Origin: Chloroflexota bacterium
GTDB lineage: Bacteria > Chloroflexota > Anaerolineae > Anaerolineales > Anaerolineaceae
Assembly (NCBI GenBank): GCA_011053085.1
Contig: DSBE01000185.1
Location: 1-8,767, forward strand
Length of the DNA stretch: 8,767 nt
Direction of reading: 5' to 3'
Shown: piece after piece, positions 1,872-8,465 of the stretch
Layout: the number at the start of each line of letters is the position of its first letter
How positions within the stretch are numbered: the first letter of the stretch is position 1
Program-made: the position numbers and the translations under genes
Notes under the pieces: model-generated
Database searches by the model: none
Told to the model about the DNA's origin: nothing
What the model saw: only the letters and a program-made list of their open reading frames with translations

Positions 1872-3482
1872 GTGAATTCACAGCAAAACATCGCCGTGTT
1901 GTGCACCACCTATCAATGCCAGCAGGGGAACGCCCACAAAACCGCCCTGCGCTGGGTGGATGCGGATTTTACGTGCGCGGATTACACCTTTGCCGCGTTG
2001 GAGCAGCAATCCAATCGTTATGCCAATGTGCTGAAAAACCTGGGGTATGGCAAAGGCGACCGCATTTTCCTGTACCTGCCGCCCATGCCCGAGGTGTATT
2101 TTAGTTTTCTGGCGATCTTGAAGCGGCAGGCGGTGGCGGGTTTGCTGTTTTCCAATTTCGGGCGGTCGGCGGTCTTTGACCGCCTGTCAGATGCCGGCGC
2201 CAAAGTGCTGATCACCAAACAAAGCCTGTTGCGGCGCATGCGCGATGTGATCGATGGGCTGCCTGCGTTGGAAATGATCTTGCTGGTCGATGCAGATCAG
2301 GACGAAGACGAAAGCGTGCGCAGCCTGCCAATATTGCTGGCGCAAGCCAGTGATGAGTATGAAACCCCGCCGACCGCGCCTGACACCCCCTCGGTGCTGC
2401 ACTACACCTCTGGCTCCACCGGCAAACCCAAAGGCGTGCTGCATGTGCACGGCGGTATCAGCCACCAACAGCAGACGGTCAAGGAGGTGCTGCAACTGGA
2501 GAGCGATGACCTTTTCTGGTGCACGGCTGACCATGGCTGGGTGACCGGCACCACCTACGGCATCACCGCGCCCTGGAGCCTGGGGCACAGCCTGGTGCAA
2601 TTTGGCGGGTTGTTCAATGCCGAACACTGGTTCCGCCTGGTGGAAGAACAAAAGATCACGGTCTGGTACACGGCGCCGACCGCCTTGCGCATGCTGATGC
2701 GCGAAGAAGACAAGATCAAAGGCAAGTTTGACCTGTCAGCATTGAAACGCATGTACAGTGTGGGCGAACCACTCAACCCCGAGATCATCCACTGGGTGAA
2801 ACGCACGCTGGACAAAGACATCTATGACACCTGGTTCCAGACCGAAACCGGCGCGCACATGATCGTCAACCGCCCCGGCTTGCCGGTCAAACCCGGCTCG
2901 ATGGGCAAACCGGTCAGCGGCATCCAGGCGGCTATCTTCGTCGATGGCGAACGAAGCCAGACCCCCGGCACCATCGGCAGTTTGTGCTTGAAAAAAGGCT
3001 GGCCCTCCATGTTCGTCAGTTATCTGAACATGCCGGAGGCTTACGCCGCCAAATTCAAGGGTGATTTTTATGAGAGCGGCGACCTGGCGAAGGTGGACGC
3101 GGACGGTTATTATTGGTTTGTCGGGCGCGGTGATGATGTCATGAACCCCTCCGGTCACCTGGTGGGGCCGTTCGAGGTGGAAAGCGCATTGCTGGAACTG
3201 CCGGAGATCATTGACGCCGCCGTGATCGGCGCGCCTGACCCGCTGCTGTATGAGAAGGTGGTGGCCTTCATCACCCTCAAACCCGGGCTTGCCTGGGATC
3301 GCAAATTGGAAATCAAATGCCGCATTCATATCTCCAACCGCCTGTCGCCCATCGCGGTGCCGAGTGAATACCACCTGCGTGAGAGCCTGCCCAAGAACCG
3401 CAGTGGTAAAATAATGCGCAGAGTGTTGAAAGCCGACTACCTGGGTGAAGACCTGGGGGATATATCAACTCTGGAGGTATGA
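1872..3482 (+). CDS. AcsA-like acyl-CoA synthetase / acyl-ACP ligase (ANL superfamily)
   Basis: This 536-residue AMP-forming ligase activates a carboxylic acid as acyl-adenylate and then passes it to a thiol (CoA or a pantetheine arm). The ANL motifs appear in order: A3 P-loop YTSGSTGKPKG at 178-188, A5 WFQTETG at 321-327, A7 YESGDLA at 400-406, the hinge region starting GRGDD at 418, and A10 PKNRSGKI at 507-514 with catalytic Lys513. Segments such as WCTADHGWVTG (216-226) and WYTAPTALRM (265-274) place it near acetyl-CoA synthetase of the AcsA type. The second Trp of the usual TWWQTETG motif is Phe322, so the acid may not be acetate. The start is GTG with GGAAG 6 nt upstream; no other in-frame start lies nearby upstream. 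An ACP gene begins 1 nt after its stop, which suggests the ACP could be the acyl acceptor. Confidence 0.88.
   Translation: MNSQQNIAVLCTTYQCQQGNAHKTALRWVDADFTCADYTFAALEQQSNRYANVLKNLGYGKGDRIFLYLPPMPEVYFSFLAILKRQAVAGLLFSNFGRSAVFDRLSDAGAKVLITKQSLLRRMRDVIDGLPALEMILLVDADQDEDESVRSLPILLAQASDEYETPPTAPDTPSVLHYTSGSTGKPKGVLHVHGGISHQQQTVKEVLQLESDDLFWCTADHGWVTGTTYGITAPWSLGHSLVQFGGLFNAEHWFRLVEEQKITVWYTAPTALRMLMREEDKIKGKFDLSALKRMYSVGEPLNPEIIHWVKRTLDKDIYDTWFQTETGAHMIVNRPGLPVKPGSMGKPVSGIQAAIFVDGERSQTPGTIGSLCLKKGWPSMFVSYLNMPEAYAAKFKGDFYESGDLAKVDADGYYWFVGRGDDVMNPSGHLVGPFEVESALLELPEIIDAAVIGAPDPLLYEKVVAFITLKPGLAWDRKLEIKCRIHISNRLSPIAVPSEYHLRESLPKNRSGKIMRRVLKADYLGEDLGDISTLEV
3473..3478 (+). promoter_or_regulatory. 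strong ribosome binding site deciding the TTG start of the ACP gene
   Basis: GGAGGT lies in the last codons of the ligase gene and 5 nt before TTG at 3484. This fixes a TTG start for the ACP. An upstream in-frame ATG at 3445 would add 13 residues unlike any ACP. The ATG at 3479 is in another frame and stops after eight codons. Confidence 0.75.
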
Positions 3483-3483
3483 G

Positions 3484-3720
3484 TTGGAAATTCTTGAACA
3501 ATTAACTGAAGTGTTTCAAATGGTGTTTGAAGATGACGAGATCGAGATTGACCGCCATACCACCGCGAATGACATCGACGGCTGGGACTCGATGTCACAC
3601 ATGACGCTGTTGATGGCGATCGAAGAAGATTTCGAGATTGAATTTGAAGAGTGGGAAGTGATTGACCTTTCAGATGTGGGCGAACTGATCGACCTTATCA
3701 CCGAAAAGCTGTCTGAATAA
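3484..3720 (+). CDS. stand-alone acyl carrier protein
   Basis: This is a 78-residue, strongly acidic protein of normal ACP length. It carries the phosphopantetheine attachment motif GWDSMSHM (residues 33-40), with Ser36 as the modified serine. It is followed by the typical helix pattern of an IEEDF-type segment, then a Val-Gly-Glu-Leu turn and a hydrophobic last helix. The holo form would carry an acyl chain as a thioester on a 4'-phosphopantetheine arm in the cytoplasm. The gene begins 1 nt after the ligase stop, from a TTG with a strong GGAGGT ribosome binding site, so the two are almost certainly translated together. The WDSM-type serine motif is more like ACPs of specialised gene clusters (surface glycan, ligase-ACP pairs such as DltA-DltC) than the housekeeping fatty-acid ACP, which usually has DSLD. 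The partner acyltransferase is not in the window. Confidence 0.88.
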   Translation: MEILEQLTEVFQMVFEDDEIEIDRHTTANDIDGWDSMSHMTLLMAIEEDFEIEFEEWEVIDLSDVGELIDLITEKLSE

Positions 3721-3748
3721 TCCTTCCCCATAAAGAAAGGTGCAACTC

Positions 3749-4450
3749 ATGGACTATCAGGCTATATTGGACCACATTCGCGGCGGGTTGATCGTTTCGG
3801 TACAGCCCGACGCAGACAAGCCGCAGCTTGACCCGCTGAACGACGCCGCCATCATGGCAGCGCTGGCGCAGGCGGTGGTGTTGGGCGGGGCGGTTGCCAT
3901 CCGCGCTGACAGCCCCGGCCATATCCGCGCTATCCGCGAGAAGATTCAACTTCCCCTGATCGGGCTGTACAAATTTGACATCGAAGGCTTCGCCGTGCGT
4001 ATCACGCCAACGTTGGAACATGCGCGCGCGGTGGCACAAGCCGGCGCAGACATCATCGCCGTGGACGGCACCGGTCGGCCGCGCCCGGAAGGCCTTACTG
4101 CGCCGGAGTTTATCCAGCGCGTGAAAGCCGAGACCGGCGCGTTAGTGATGGCGGATATCGCCACTTGTGAAGAAGGGCTTGCCGCCGCAGAAGCCGGCGC
4201 TGACTTCATCGCCACCACTCTCTCCGGGTATACCGCTGACAGCCATCAATCCAGCCAGCCCGATTACCGCCTGGTGAGGAGCCTGTGTCAGGCTACCGAG
4301 GTGCCGATCATCGCCGAAGGACGCATTGCCACCCCCCAGCAAGCCAGCCGTATGCTGTCGGAAGGTGCATTCGCCGTGACAGTCGGCAGCGCCATCACCC
4401 GCCCGCGTTCGATCACCGAACGCTTTATCCAAGAGATCAAAGGGAACTGA
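3749..4450 (+). CDS. nanE: N-acetylmannosamine-6-phosphate 2-epimerase
   Basis: The 233-residue TIM-barrel protein matches NanE, which interconverts N-acetylmannosamine-6-phosphate and N-acetylglucosamine-6-phosphate in cytoplasmic sialic acid/ManNAc breakdown. Visible family segments are RGGLIVSVQ (11-19), the strand PLIGLYKFD (69-77) with the expected catalytic Lys75, DIIAVDGTGRPRP (101-113), MADIATCEEG (134-143) and IIAEGRI (187-193) with Glu190 as the second catalytic residue. The phosphate-binding TVGSAITRP follows at 211-219. The ATG at 3749 is chosen over the GTG at 3740 because AAAGG (3736-3740) lies 8 nt in front of it. The gene is 28 nt after the ACP and 1 nt before the ROK kinase. 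The NanE-kinase order is the common nan arrangement, but no N-acetylneuraminate lyase (nanA) or sialic acid transporter is in view. Confidence 0.92.
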   Translation: MDYQAILDHIRGGLIVSVQPDADKPQLDPLNDAAIMAALAQAVVLGGAVAIRADSPGHIRAIREKIQLPLIGLYKFDIEGFAVRITPTLEHARAVAQAGADIIAVDGTGRPRPEGLTAPEFIQRVKAETGALVMADIATCEEGLAAAEAGADFIATTLSGYTADSHQSSQPDYRLVRSLCQATEVPIIAEGRIATPQQASRMLSEGAFAVTVGSAITRPRSITERFIQEIKGN

Positions 4451-4451
4451 C

Positions 4452-5405
4452 ATGGACGCGATCATTGGCGCAGTGGATGTGGGCGGCAACAAGATCGCCG
4501 TTGGATTGGTGACTGAAAAAGGCGAGTTGATCGATTCTGTGCAGTGGGAAACCGATGCAGAACTGGACGCGCATGCAGCCATCGTGCCGATTGCAGATGA
4601 ACTCAAACAGTTAAGCCGCTCCCATGGCGTTCCCCTGGTAGGCGTGGGCTGCGCAGTCACCGGTCCGGTGGATTACCACCGCGGTATCCTGGGTAAAAAT
4701 GCCTTTCTACCCAAATGGGAGGGCAATGTGCTGCTCTCCACCCTGATTCACCAGCTGCGTCTGCCGGTGTTTGCTGACAATGACGCCATCGCTTCCGCCA
4801 TGGGCGAATATACCTGGGGGGCGGGCAAGGGCGCGCGCAGCTTCATCTTCATCTGCGTCAGCACCGGCATCGGCGTATCCGTGATCATTGATGGACAGGT
4901 ATACCGCGGGGTGGATGGGGCGCATCCTGAATGCGGCCACCATGTCATTGACATCAACGCCAGGGGGCCAGCCTGTTTCTGTGGGGCGCACGGCTGCTGG
5001 GAATCACTTGCCAGCGGCACTGCCATGGAGCTGCGCTGGCGCGAGGAGTTCCCTGAAGAACCGCTCAAAGCCAAGGAGATATGCAACCTGGCTGCCAACG
5101 GCGTGGCAGAAGCCCAGACAATGGTGGCGCTGGAAGGGCGCTATCTGGGCGTGGGTATTGCCAACCTGGTCACGCAATTTGTGCCAGAAGTCATCGCACT
5201 GGGCGGTGGTGTAATGGGCAGCTATGACATGTTCCTGCCCTATATCGAAGAACAAATTGCCGAACAATGCCGCCTGGTGCCGCAGGAACTGGTGGAGATC
5301 AAACCGGCGCGCTTCCGCGACAAAGCTGGTTTGCTGGGCGCTGCCGCCGTCTTCCCGCTGTACTCCTACCGCCTGCAGGGCTTGAACAACACCCACGACG
5401 AATGA
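4452..5405 (+). CDS. ROK-family sugar kinase, probably N-acetylmannosamine kinase
   Basis: This 317-residue protein is a ROK kinase that phosphorylates a hexose or N-acetylhexosamine with ATP. It has the N-terminal phosphate motif VDVGGNK (8-14), the catalytic base in ADND (108-111, Asp111), and a zinc site built from HPECGHH (158-164) and CFCGAHGCWE (175-184): His163, Cys175, Cys177 and Cys182. A C-terminal IALGGGV-type loop is also visible. The neighbour nanE, whose stop lies 1 nt before this ATG (AAGGGA in front of the start), suggests the substrate is N-acetylmannosamine, giving the 6-phosphate that NanE epimerises. Against a firm call, HPE-x-GH is a form also seen in ROK fructokinases, while the CxCGxxGCxE motif is typical of glucokinase/NanK types. 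It is the last gene of the operon, with no clear terminator after it. Confidence 0.85.
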   Translation: MDAIIGAVDVGGNKIAVGLVTEKGELIDSVQWETDAELDAHAAIVPIADELKQLSRSHGVPLVGVGCAVTGPVDYHRGILGKNAFLPKWEGNVLLSTLIHQLRLPVFADNDAIASAMGEYTWGAGKGARSFIFICVSTGIGVSVIIDGQVYRGVDGAHPECGHHVIDINARGPACFCGAHGCWESLASGTAMELRWREEFPEEPLKAKEICNLAANGVAEAQTMVALEGRYLGVGIANLVTQFVPEVIALGGGVMGSYDMFLPYIEEQIAEQCRLVPQELVEIKPARFRDKAGLLGAAAVFPLYSYRLQGLNNTHDE

Positions 5406-5485: not shown

Positions 5486-5492
5486 GCTATTA
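5460..5492. promoter_or_regulatory. 33-bp palindrome, likely HigA/HigBA operator
   Basis: The left arm TAATAGCATGATATC (5460-5474) and right arm GATATCATGCTATTA (5478-5492) are exact reverse complements around the 3-nt centre CGT. The last base of the right arm is the A of the higB ATG. A symmetric element over the promoter is what an XRE-type antitoxin dimer, alone or with toxin, would bind for autorepression. No second copy was noticed elsewhere in the window. Confidence 0.7.
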
Positions 5493-5785
5493 TGATCCAG
5501 TCATTTAAAGACACTGGCACCGAAGCCATATACAATGGCATCAATAACAAAAACGCCCGCAACGCATTGCCAAATGTGCTTTGGAAAGTGGCTGCCAGAA
5601 AACTGGACCAGTTAGATTCCGCCAGTCAGTTATCAGACTTGCGCGCCCCTCCCGGCAATCATCTGGAGACATTGTCCGGTGAACGCCTGGGGCAACACAG
5701 CATTCGCATCAACCAACAATATCGAATTTGCTTTGTCTGGACAACACAAGGCCCAGACAAGTTGGAAATCGTAGATTACCACTAA
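5492..5785 (+). CDS. higB: HigB-family (RelE/ParE fold) toxin
   Basis: The 97-residue protein is a full-length HigB-type toxin. Family members are small ribosome-dependent mRNA interferases, neutralised by HigA. Recognisable segments are the start MIQSFKDTGTE, the central LRAPPGNHLETLSG (50-63), the strand SIRINQQYRICFVW (70-83) and the ending EIVDYH (92-97). The last three residues (Asp95-Tyr96-His97) match the C-terminal residues important in Proteus HigB. The histidine of that enzyme's LHPLKG segment corresponds here to Glu59, which I believe is usual in this branch. The ATG at 5492 is the only plausible start and matches the family start, yet there is no ribosome binding site in front of it and the predicted transcription start is at or near it. 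The antitoxin gene follows 11 nt after the stop. The toxin-first order is typical of hig loci. Confidence 0.9.
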   Translation: MIQSFKDTGTEAIYNGINNKNARNALPNVLWKVAARKLDQLDSASQLSDLRAPPGNHLETLSGERLGQHSIRINQQYRICFVWTTQGPDKLEIVDYH

Positions 5786-5796
5786 GAGAGGTTTTT

Positions 5797-6135
5797 ATGG
5801 TCCGTGTCCCGACCAACCGCACACCCACACACCCCGGAGATATGCTGCTGGAAGAGTTTCTCCAACCAATGGGGTTGACCCAGCGTCAGCTGGCCGACCG
5901 CATTCATGTGCCCTATCAGCGTGTTAATGAGATCGTGCATGGCAAACGCGGTGTGACACCCCACACAGCGCTGCGCCTGGCGAAGTTCTTCAACACCAGC
6001 GTCGATTTCTGGATGAATCTTCAGCTGCGCTGGGAGTTATATTTTGCCCAGCAGGACGAAAAAGCCATCCTGCGCGAGATCCAGCCATTCGTCATCGCAG
6101 AGGAAAGCAACAGTGAACACTATGACGCACAATGA
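5797..6135 (+). CDS. higA: HigA-family antitoxin (XRE helix-turn-helix)
   Basis: The 112-residue protein opens with the THPGDMLLEEFL segment (11-22) typical of HigA/VapI antitoxins. It continues with a helix-turn-helix GLTQRQLADRIHVPYQRVNE (26-45), then GKRGVT (49-54), ALRLAKFF (58-65) and FWMNLQ (71-76). It should neutralise HigB by direct binding and repress the shared promoter through the palindrome at 5460-5492. The ATG at 5797 is preferred because GAGAGG (5786-5791) lies 5 nt before it; longer in-frame starts upstream would overlap higB and add an unrelated N-terminus. HigA thus has a good ribosome binding site while higB has none, which would favour antitoxin over toxin synthesis from the same mRNA. 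The C-terminal tail (about 100-112) is acidic. Confidence 0.9.
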   Translation: MVRVPTNRTPTHPGDMLLEEFLQPMGLTQRQLADRIHVPYQRVNEIVHGKRGVTPHTALRLAKFFNTSVDFWMNLQLRWELYFAQQDEKAILREIQPFVIAEESNSEHYDAQ

Positions 6136-6163: not shown

Positions 6164-7516
6164 ATGAGCATTACTACAATTGCCTTAATCCTGGCTGCTC
6201 TGCCGCTATTTTTCTTCTTGGCCAGTTTTGCCAGCATCTCGTTTCGTGAGCAGGAGCGGCGCGCCGGCTGGAAAGTGTTGGGCAGTCTGCTTATGTTAAC
6301 CGCCTCCGCAACCGTCGTTGCGTGGCTGGGCGGTATCGCTGCACAGGCTGCCCTGTATGCCATGCTTGGGCTGTACATTCTCCTCGCCTTTTTGTTCTTT
6401 GTGCCGGGCAAAAAGCACCAGGAGCCCGCGCAACATCCCCGGCGGCGTTATGATGAGCGCCGCATCATGTTTGCGCGCATGCGCATGCGGCCTGATTCAA
6501 CCAACTATCAGGATTATTACCGACAACACCCTGAGGATTTGGCAGGGGATGAAGCCATTCGTCAAAACAGCTGGCACAACCGGCAGGAGCTTTCTTCGCG
6601 CTTGATGGATGCGGCTGCCCATGCCAGTTTTGCTGCGGTCGGCAGCCTGCGCAGCCTGGTCGATGGTGAAGCTGCCCCTGACAAGATCGACATCCCTGCT
6701 GAAGAAAGAACTGCTTACCTTTGCGGGTTGGCAAAATTTTTCGGTGCGCTGGATGTTGGTGTTACCGCATTAAAGCCAGTCCATATCTATTCCCATGTCG
6801 GCAGAGGGGCGGGAGAATGGGGACAAGAAATTGCATTAAACCACACCCATGCCATCGCATTGACGACAGAAATGGCGCGGGAAAACATCATAAGCGCCCC
6901 GCGCCAGCCGGTGATGGCGGAATCTGCCCGGCAATATGCCCGGGCCGGCCTGACCGCCGTGATGCTGGCCGCCGCCATCCGCGCCATGGGCTATGAAGCA
7001 CGCGCCCATATTGACGGCAGCTACCAGGTTATCTGCCCGCTGGTGGCGCGCGACGCCGGGCTGGGCGAGATCGGCCGCATGGGCCTGTTAATGACGCCGC
7101 GGCAGGGCCCGCGCGTGCGCCTGGCGGTGGTGACCACCAACCTGCCCTTGCAAGCACATGATTATCAACCTGACCATGCCATCATCGATTTCTGCAATCG
7201 ATGCAACGTATGCGCTGCGAACTGCCCCGGCAAAGCCATTCCCACCGGGGAGCGCATCATGATAAACGGCGCCTTGCGCTGGCAGATTGACCAGCAGCGC
7301 TGTTACCATTTCTGGACACGCGCCGGCACTGATTGCGGCCGCTGCATGGCGGTCTGTCCGCTGGCGCACAGCGACCATTGGACCCACAATCTGCTGCAGC
7401 AGGGCATCCAGCGTTCCGCCGCCTTTCGACAGACATATGTCAAGTTAGACCGCTGGCTGTATGGCGCACATCCCCAACCAAAAGGCGCCCCCGCCTGGCT
7501 GCCGCGCGATCATTGA
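6164..7516 (+). CDS. reductive-dehalogenase-like iron-sulfur protein with N-terminal transmembrane helices
   Basis: The 450-residue protein has three hydrophobic helices (about 4-25, 36-57 and 60-80), a basic linker (KK at 83-84, RRR at 93-95) and a soluble domain of the RdhA type. The segment DAGLGEIGRMGLL (297-309) followed by TPRQGPRVRLAVV (311-323) is characteristic of cobalamin-dependent reductive dehalogenases. Two ferredoxin-type clusters follow: C344-x2-C347-x2-C350-x3-C354-P and C380-x10-C391-x2-C394-x3-C398-P. Classical respiratory RdhA enzymes have a Tat signal and a small RdhB membrane anchor. Here there is neither, so the helices are likely the anchor. By the positive-inside rule, with basic residues after helix 1 and after helix 3, the catalytic domain would face the cytoplasm. 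A class of putative dehalogenases with such helices is known from genomes. The substrate is unknown. The start at 6164 has only a weak, distant AGGA. The gene lies 28 nt after higA and overlaps the convergent tetR gene by 7 nt. Confidence 0.82.
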   Translation: MSITTIALILAALPLFFFLASFASISFREQERRAGWKVLGSLLMLTASATVVAWLGGIAAQAALYAMLGLYILLAFLFFVPGKKHQEPAQHPRRRYDERRIMFARMRMRPDSTNYQDYYRQHPEDLAGDEAIRQNSWHNRQELSSRLMDAAAHASFAAVGSLRSLVDGEAAPDKIDIPAEERTAYLCGLAKFFGALDVGVTALKPVHIYSHVGRGAGEWGQEIALNHTHAIALTTEMARENIISAPRQPVMAESARQYARAGLTAVMLAAAIRAMGYEARAHIDGSYQVICPLVARDAGLGEIGRMGLLMTPRQGPRVRLAVVTTNLPLQAHDYQPDHAIIDFCNRCNVCAANCPGKAIPTGERIMINGALRWQIDQQRCYHFWTRAGTDCGRCMAVCPLAHSDHWTHNLLQQGIQRSAAFRQTYVKLDRWLYGAHPQPKGAPAWLPRDH

Positions 7517-8154
7517 TCTGCCTGGCGCGGCACCTGCCATTGATCCTGCGGGTTCTCCAGGTTGTCCAGCATGGTATTTAGCATGCGTTCCGACACCTCG
7601 TGAAAGACTTGTTCGCCTGCCATCAATGAATGGCGCAGGATGACACAGCCATGGATGCAGGTCCACAACTGCAGCACCAGCAATTCTTCGTTGAAACCCG
7701 GCGGCAGATTCAGCAGGTCCATCTTGCGCGCCTGGCGCAGTTTTTTCTGCATGTAGCGGAAGTGCAGGGTGTTGAAGATCTCTTTGTAGTTGGGGCGGGC
7801 ATGGTCATAGCGCTCATAGATGAGCAGGTATAACTGCGGCTGCTCAACGGCGAACGCCAGCAGGGTGCGGCAGGCGGTGCGCACATCATCCAGCGGGTTG
7901 CCGTTCAGCCGCTCGGTTTCCGCAAAGGCATGCGCCATGCGCTTGAGCGCACGCTCGCGCACTGCTTGCAGGATGGCTTCTTTGCCGTCAAAATGTTTGT
8001 AGAGCGCAGCCGGGCTTAACCCGATGGCCTGCGCCAGCTGCCGCATCGAGAGTGCTTCTTGACCGTCTGCTTCAATGATCCGGGTGGCGATATCGACGAT
8101 CTTGCGGCGTGTGGTGGTTGCGCTGCTGATCCTTTGGATCGTTATCGTGTCCAT
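7510..8154 (-). CDS. TetR-family transcriptional repressor with WHG-type C-terminal domain
   Basis: The 214-residue protein has the N-terminal three-helix TetR DNA-binding domain (about 16-62), including the helix-turn-helix MRQLAQAIGLSPAALYKHF (37-55) followed by DGKEAIL. The all-helical ligand domain contains LWTCIHGCVIL (163-173), the W-x2-hHG signature that gives WHG-type TetR proteins their name. Such proteins usually repress their own gene and a neighbour, and are released by a small hydrophobic ligand, which is not identifiable here. The ATG at 8154 has AGGAG (8162-8166) 7 nt upstream, and a palindromic site lies just beyond it. The likely regulated neighbour is the divergent fatty-acid-hydroxylase-like gene. 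The 3' end overlaps the end of the dehalogenase-like gene tail to tail, so both stop codons lie within 7 bp. Confidence 0.9.
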   Translation of the reverse strand: MDTITIQRISSATTTRRKIVDIATRIIEADGQEALSMRQLAQAIGLSPAALYKHFDGKEAILQAVRERALKRMAHAFAETERLNGNPLDDVRTACRTLLAFAVEQPQLYLLIYERYDHARPNYKEIFNTLHFRYMQKKLRQARKMDLLNLPPGFNEELLVLQLWTCIHGCVILRHSLMAGEQVFHEVSERMLNTMLDNLENPQDQWQVPRQADQ

Positions 8155-8170
8155 TTCGTCACTCCTGGGG

Positions 8171-8185
8171 GTGAACGCTGTTCAC
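8171..8185. promoter_or_regulatory. 15-bp palindrome in the tetR leader, likely TetR operator
   Basis: GTGAAC (8171-8176), the 3-nt centre GCT, and GTTCAC (8180-8185) form a perfect inverted repeat of the size and symmetry bound by TetR-family dimers. It lies 16 nt upstream of the tetR start codon, just downstream of the predicted transcription start. Repressor bound there would block its own transcription. It is over 300 nt from the divergent gene, so control of that gene would need another site. Confidence 0.65.
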
Positions 8186-8199
8186 TTCCCTTTGGTTTT

Positions 8200-8228
8200 A
8201 GTGTACAAAAAACAACCGCTCAGGGCAA
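8200..8228 (-). promoter_or_regulatory. predicted promoter of the tetR gene
   Basis: Reading the minus strand, TTGCCC (8228-8223; 4 of 6 matches to -35) and TACACT (8205-8200; 4 of 6 matches to -10) are 17 nt apart. The expected transcription start, near 8193, would place the palindrome at 8171-8185 immediately downstream, a common position for autorepression. Confidence 0.4.
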
Positions 8229-8465
8229 CAATTTTTAACCTTAAGCCAGATACGGCAACTGGTTGCACGCTTATTCCCATCTTTATGCCCATATGTGGCG
8301 GTTTGGTACCGGCGAACCCTGTCAATCAGGCAAATTTCTCTATCTTCCATGAATCTTAACAAAAACCGAACAGTTCAGGTGATGATTGGTCTGCAAAATT
8401 TGCCCTGTCTTTTTGCACCCATGCCTGCCAACAGCCATTCTCATCGAAGGCAGCGCATCATCGGT
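8229..8465. other. intergenic stretch with nothing recognisable
   Basis: This is the middle of a 361-nt gap between divergent genes (8155-8515). Short open frames here lack ribosome binding sites and any family resemblance. I see no terminator hairpin, tRNA, repeat array or riboswitch-like structure. The ends of the gap hold the tetR promoter/operator and the -10 of the next gene. Confidence 0.5.

Follow-up and report, generated by a model that had tools for sequence, protein, structure and literature searches.

Which face of the membrane does a reductive dehalogenase-like (RdhA-like) protein serve when it carries its own membrane helices, and where do its electrons come from? The question is raised by a gene in an 8,767-base stretch of DNA from a Chloroflexota bacterium (assembly GCA_011053085.1), hereafter the window; the window is exactly contig DSBE01000185.1, so that only 1,251 bases of context lie 3' of the gene:

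6164..7516, forward strand: hybrid (N-transmembrane) RdhA-like gene, 450 amino acids, ATG start, identified from the list of open reading frames (ORFs), NCBIfam, homologues, alignment and tree

The gene belongs to the hybrid N-transmembrane class of putative reductive dehalogenases (RDases), which are neither of the twin-arginine translocation (Tat) type nor catabolic. The class was first noted in PMC6129605 and described by Atashgahi 2019 (PMC6797604); the naming left the questions of whether these proteins are functional, on which side of the membrane they lie and what their electron source is. Our best explanation, to which we give a probability of about 60%, is an RdhA-superfamily reductase that likely binds a corrinoid and two 4Fe-4S clusters and is predicted to lie on the cytoplasmic face, where it would reduce a single conserved acceptor, most likely an organohalide or something chemically close to one, with electrons likely supplied by a low-potential cytosolic donor such as ferredoxin. 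The family, the predicted fold, the cysteine motifs, the catalytic-type Tyr, Arg and Trp, the lack of a Tat motif and the lack of a detected RdhB are directly supported. While the class itself was already known, the inverted hairpin, the frozen pocket and the missing quinone markers are added here.

Family placement and predicted fold

Homologues with E <= 1e-10 numbered at least 4,119 among 7,998 candidates scored, far beyond chance. Among the matches listed, the best was 94% identical across 100% of the query, and identity to the window protein was at most 65% past the six closest. Named sources among the nearest homologues were Anaerolineae or Anaerolineaceae (P0011, P0013), and judged by record titles the hybrids span about a dozen phyla. 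Pfam returned ferredoxin-type families only for the window protein, and a PF13486 profile search of the host genome gave zero matches, as did its controls, and is therefore uninformative. An initial annotation, made from the sequence alone, had described an RdhA-like protein with two complete 4Fe-4S motifs and a TPRQGPRV region, which was borne out: TPRQGPRV occupies residues 311–318, the preceding DAGLGEIGRMGLL residues 297–309, and all eight Fe-S cysteines were invariant in a 37-row alignment.

7193..7225, forward strand: FeS1 motif C344..C354 (C344-x2-C347-x2-C350-x3-C354-P)
7301..7357, forward strand: FeS2 motif C380..C398 (cysteines C380, C391, C394 and C398-P)

The AlphaFold2 model built on the same 37-row alignment had a predicted local distance difference test score (pLDDT) of 87.1 and a predicted template modelling score (pTM) of 0.88; VIA coverage was mainly of residues 87–450. 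The predicted structure has the RdhA fold, which is that of corrinoid enzymes, and dehalogenases are its closest characterised kin in both sequence and modelled fold. Judged by fold, not by cofactor, a corrinoid pocket is plausible, and the protein likely binds a corrinoid together with two 4Fe-4S clusters.

A tree of 66 rows was calculated from 204 catalytic-core columns. It included 25 hybrids, namely the window protein, eight proteins taken from databases and 16 loci of other genomes (L088 and L105, of the 18 loci chosen, did not pass the pattern filter), as well as 16 Tat-type RdhA out of 34. The hybrids formed a single clade with support of 100/100, separate from Tat-type RdhA (with SmPceA and DhPceA), from NpRdhA and from the QueG rows; one row, L136, sits on a long branch and its placement is unsure. 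The sister of the hybrids (98/89) comprised four Chloroflexota RdhA-like proteins (L126, L127, L128 and L133), in which reading of the sequences revealed a DER-x-x-FAR motif near the N-terminus without preceding membrane helices. By virtue of this placement, the nearest kin of the hybrids are of soluble type. The initial annotation had likened the protein to a little-studied helix-bearing class, neither Tat-exported nor catabolic, and this agrees with the tree and with the hybrid class of PMC6797604.

6452..6478, forward strand: D97-E-R-x-I-M-F-A-R105 motif 3' of helix 3 (D, E and R in 196/196 members; the soluble sister group has a comparable motif)

Active site and substrate

Conservation was assessed in 196 distinct members (198 before duplicate removal), consisting of the window protein, 120 listed homologues and 77 proteins from fetched loci. 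The counterpart of the catalytic Tyr, which the initial annotation had proposed to look for, is by alignment Y258:

6935..6937, forward strand: Y258, aligned with the catalytic Tyr of SmPceA (Y246), DhPceA (Y337) and NpRdhA (Y426); kept in 195/196
7013..7015, forward strand: D284, in the place of SmPceA N272; 196/196
7118..7120, forward strand: R319, in the place of SmPceA R305 and DhPceA R396; 196/196
7313..7315, forward strand: W384, in the place of SmPceA W376 and DhPceA W471; 196/196
7331..7333, forward strand: D390, in the place of SmPceA Y382 and DhPceA P477; 196/196

We take SmPceA N272 and W376 to be pocket positions. Four others (T242, Y246, R305 and Y382) are named in PMC10624902, which also provides the catalytic roles of Tyr and Arg in PceA. 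In the hybrids, five of the six show conservation of 99% or more, as do 16.9% of catalytic columns overall (binomial chance about 7 in 10,000, the columns not being independent). Among the 16 Tat-type RdhA the Tyr is kept in 15 and the places of R319, D284, W384 and D390 vary, for which misalignment in gappy stretches is possibly part of the reason. Since the pocket is frozen across the hybrids, we infer that they share one conserved substrate, unlike the Tat-type RdhA with their substrate diversity; such a substrate should be findable and common to many phyla, including many uncultured sediment lineages. In the proposed mechanism electrons from the donor would reach Co(I) by way of the distal 4Fe-4S cluster followed by the proximal one, and Y258 would act as the proton donor, stabilised by R319.

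The frozen pocket would also suit a protein that is not a dehalogenase in vivo and instead, using the RdhA scaffold in the manner of QueG, acts as a corrinoid reductase of the housekeeping type on a single endogenous and probably polar substrate. Invariant Asp residues replacing SmPceA N272 and Y382, the spread over about a dozen phyla and the lack of a cross-phylum neighbour among the gene clusters listed point the same way. However, the hybrids retain the Tyr, Arg and Trp seen in respiratory RDases and the closest characterised relatives are dehalogenases, while the substrate is not readable from sequence; we consider this alternative a serious one, although somewhat short of even odds.

RdhB-like hairpin and supply of electrons

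The three hydrophobic helices that the initial annotation saw in residues 1–80 were recovered by AlphaFold2 with pLDDT of 89–95 in the helix blocks:

6170..6247, forward strand: predicted transmembrane helix 1, residues 3–28 (AlphaFold2; profile match to RdhB helix 2)
6248..6256, forward strand: E29-Q30-E31, the EXE motif of the basic helix 1–2 loop (E29 in 194/194 and E31 in 165/194 filled rows)
6257..6328, forward strand: predicted transmembrane helix 2, residues 32–55 (AlphaFold2)
6335..6400, forward strand: predicted transmembrane helix 3, residues 58–79 (AlphaFold2)

An N-terminus predicted to form three helices, with the EXE loop conserved, argues against a cleaved export signal, and reading of the N-terminus of the window protein found no Tat motif RR-x-F, as had been noted earlier. 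PMC6797604 places the EXE of the hybrids between helices 1 and 2 and treats it and the EXE of PceB as the same loop; in the structure described by PMC10624902, from 2023, the EXE residues of PceB (E61 and E63) belong to the helix 2–3 loop, at the outer (P) side of the membrane. In the 28 distinct RdhB gathered here, kept from 13 earlier and 20 newly fetched stretches, EXE comes after the second helix, in agreement with the 2023 structure. Profile comparison with 151 hybrid N-termini (the remainder lacked the DER motif or had it outside residues 85–125) aligned hybrid helix 1-EXE-helix 2 in register with RdhB helix 2-EXE-helix 3, with a score of 30.4 and a probability of 80.6; none of 300 block-shuffled controls reached this score (best 25.0) and a reversed profile scored 13.7. 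Earlier comparisons with 13 RdhB had given probabilities of 62.5, and of 75.6 with none of 200 shuffles equalling it.

The catalytic domain also retains positions that correspond to the menaquinone site of DhPceA, of which K489, H495, R499, D515 and Y520 align with H402 (His in 192/196 members), H408, Q412, D429 and about Y433:

7385..7387, forward strand: H408, aligned with H495 of the DhPceA menaquinone site; 196/196
7397..7399, forward strand: Q412 (CAG), in the place of DhPceA R499; Arg in 195/196, Gln in the window protein alone
7448..7462, forward strand: D429..Y433, near DhPceA D515 and Y520; D in 193/196, Y in 194/196

Q412, near the menaquinone position, is either a genuine change or an assembly error. 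These alignments favour a quinol site, NpRdhA having Gly at the H408 place; however, some menaquinone-site residues are kept also where quinone is unused (PMC10624902). Hybrids were carried by seven of the 61 genomes searched (E < 1e-100). Of these seven, only G005 and G043 had MenA over the cut-off; G014, which has cytochrome bd, had a MenA match below it. In profile searches of the other four, the host bin G000 (69.8% complete), G001 of the same genus (95%), G011 (97%) and G028 (90%), no match to MenA, a futalosine marker or cytochrome bd was obtained. Among 54 relatives without such a hybrid, MenA was over the cut-off in 25. Each of 21 genomes searched had some UbiA-family protein, so this family alone decides nothing. 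Because quinone markers are missing and quinone-site residues persist where quinone is unused, the donor in the window organism is likely a low-potential cytosolic carrier such as ferredoxin, with quinol possible in other hosts; of the two donors named in the initial annotation, ferredoxin stands and quinol is weighed against in this lineage.

In quinone-bearing hosts, menaquinol could be oxidised on the inner side of the membrane by the hairpin together with H408, D429 and Y433. A rival reading makes the protein a menaquinol-dependent, self-contained, inside-out PceAB, to which the conservation of those residues and of E29, the RdhB-like hairpin and the MenA of G005 and G043 all lend support. 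The four hybrid genomes without quinone markers, three of them 90–97% complete, and Q412 in the window protein argue against it, and we regard this reading as unlikely, if by no means negligible.

Orientation in the membrane

The net charge of the EXE loop was negative in 25 of 28 RdhB and positive in none, whereas 119 of the 151 hybrids had a net positive loop and eight a negative one. Lysine plus arginine averaged 3.16 in the EXE-side loop and 0.46 in the other loop over 160 rows (171 sequences with the window protein counted twice, less 11 without the DER motif), and in the window protein the stretch 3' of helix 3 is basic (six K/R against three D/E). By the positive-inside rule, the family-wide loop charges support a cytoplasmic catalytic domain, as proposed in the initial annotation, and a hairpin inverted relative to that of RdhB. 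Helix 1-EXE-helix 2 would then be the quinone-clamping hairpin of RdhB, retained but inserted upside down, helix 3 would return the C-terminal domain to the EXE side, and no charge would cross the membrane. More tentatively, and with less than even confidence, we suggest that the hybrids represent a membrane-inverted RdhAB, in which a flipped hairpin is fused via an extra helix to a cytoplasmic-type RdhA, quinone-optional and dedicated to one, possibly non-halogenated, substrate across about a dozen phyla.

In an outward-facing respiratory enzyme, the C-terminal domain would have to reach the outside by Tat-independent insertion, and to our knowledge no such export route is evident for a folded corrinoid/Fe-S protein. 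The loop charges and the sister group without helices also disfavour this topology. Its support lies in PMC6797604, which lists many members with a C-terminus predicted by TMHMM to be exoplasmic and reports a mixture of TMHMM orientations; we argue that family-wide charges favour one orientation over that mixture, and an outward-facing enzyme seems very improbable. A membrane-anchored relative of the epoxyqueuosine reductase QueG, suggested by a weak match to TIGR00276 (37.6 bits against a cut-off of 200) and by the lack of another QueG match in G000, is refuted by that score and by the position of the hybrids outside QueG in the tree.

Several further observations, beside the TMHMM orientations, weigh against a cytoplasmic, ferredoxin-fed dehalogenase. 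The match to TIGR02486 (reductive dehalogenase) is under its cut-off (128.7 against 160.35 bits), and none of the four alignable DhPceA corrinoid contacts out of six listed (H395, K399, H461 and S479) is kept, the hybrid having V318, V322, Q374 and G392; at three of these four SmPceA too differs from DhPceA. Helix 1 and the EXE loop carry the RdhB match (26.3 alone, against 11.1 for the part 3' of EXE), so that the two may share a motif without being of common descent, and family-wide the stretch 3' of helix 3 is balanced (4.0 K/R against 3.9 D/E). The kept menaquinone residues, MenA in G005 and G043 and cytochrome bd in G014 leave quinol possible for the family, Q412 departs from the conserved Arg, the locus has no linked donor gene, and the incompleteness of G000 also counts. 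Profile searches for CobS gave no match in G000, G011, G014 and G028, where corrinoid would therefore have to be imported; the host, with five B12-binding-domain matches (four over the cut-off), probably salvages it, unless CobS lies in the missing 30% of G000.

Genomic context and known systems

The absence of rdhB or a small anchor gene, remarked on in the initial annotation, held in wider searches. The RdhB profile found no match in the 69.8%-complete host genome, with four of four positive-control genomes matched, nor in five others of the seven hybrid-bearing genomes. On contig 185 of G043, the RdhB gene adjoins an rdhA-like gene other than the hybrid; contigs 96, 111 and 185 of this genome contain one hybrid, three more rdhA-like matches and RdhB. 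In the window, a forward-strand ORF at 8075–8359 (94 amino acids) has two hydrophobic stretches, lacks EXE, a Pfam family and an RdhB profile match, and is antisense to the start of a TetR gene, which makes it likely not a gene. It is one of eight small hydrophobic same-strand ORFs, none with EXE, within 800 bases of 77 hybrid genes; the same loose test is of modest sensitivity, since only half of the Tat-type rdhA genes (17 of 34) yielded a neighbour.

Neighbourhoods were compared for 81 hybrid loci (80 fetched and that of the window, with crudely called ORFs). Each of the 24 largest neighbour clusters listed was common to at most nine loci, and none was conserved across phyla; the large clusters consisted mainly of syntenic blocks from Marinifilaceae or Anaerolineae, and an ATP-binding cassette transporter family was scattered in eight loci. 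A HigBA-like pair, a HigB-like toxin (PF05015) with a helix-turn-helix antitoxin at 5492–6135, ends 28 bases before the start codon of the window gene, and the 3' end of the latter abuts the convergent TetR gene. Further upstream, 1872–4447 and 4452–5405 encode in a row an acetate/acyl-CoA ligase-like protein (672.3 of 729 bits, under its best NCBIfam cut-off), an acyl-carrier-like protein, a NanE-like epimerase and a ROK kinase. In four of 80 loci, two from Anaerolineae and two from Bacteroidales, sequence reading identified CrcB/Fluc-like genes two to five genes downstream on the same strand (L041:12421–12816, L045:11368–11748, L044:4286–4669 and L092:10119–10502), possibly hinting at fluoride; no fluoride riboswitch was found there. 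Directly upstream of the hybrid in the syntenic L041 and L045 lies a gene whose product is, from its N-terminus, F420-dependent NADP oxidoreductase-like (7295–7960 and 7102–7761, respectively).

If true, an inner-face, self-anchored enzyme would be distinct from the well-studied exported enzymes that degrade chlorinated pollutants, and the charge flip of the EXE loop relative to RdhB, with the missing quinone markers, makes its side and donor directly testable. A structural relationship between hybrids and PceA2B2 is suggested in PMC10624902; PMC12090745 describes RDase bins that lack RdhB, and transcripts suggesting cytoplasmic dehalogenation; PMC12908670 names Marinifilum and Ancylomarina as candidate organohalide respirers, and PMC7031245 merely cites the class; no report of hairpin inversion was found in the excerpts retrieved by a literature search on hybrid RDases. 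The window protein does not differ in kind from the hybrids of PMC6797604, with which it shares an N-terminus of three helices, an EXE motif in the loop joining the first two, a pair of 4Fe-4S motifs, a length of about 450 amino acids and the lack of Tat signal and rdhB; it is a Chloroflexota member, and alone among the 196 carries Q412. QueG has a related fold and 4Fe-4S domain. NpRdhA (catabolic and soluble; 4ras, 6zxu), unlike the hybrid, lacks membrane helices and has further domains in a chain of 704–725 amino acids; Arg319 and Trp384 of the hybrid stand for its Lys488 and Arg552 (552 counted from the alignment). Compared with PceA2B2, the menaquinol:organohalide oxidoreductase of Desulfitobacterium (8q4h, PMC10624902), the hybrid is a single chain without Tat signal, with an extra third helix past the hairpin and an EXE loop that is basic instead of acidic and predicted to face the inner side.
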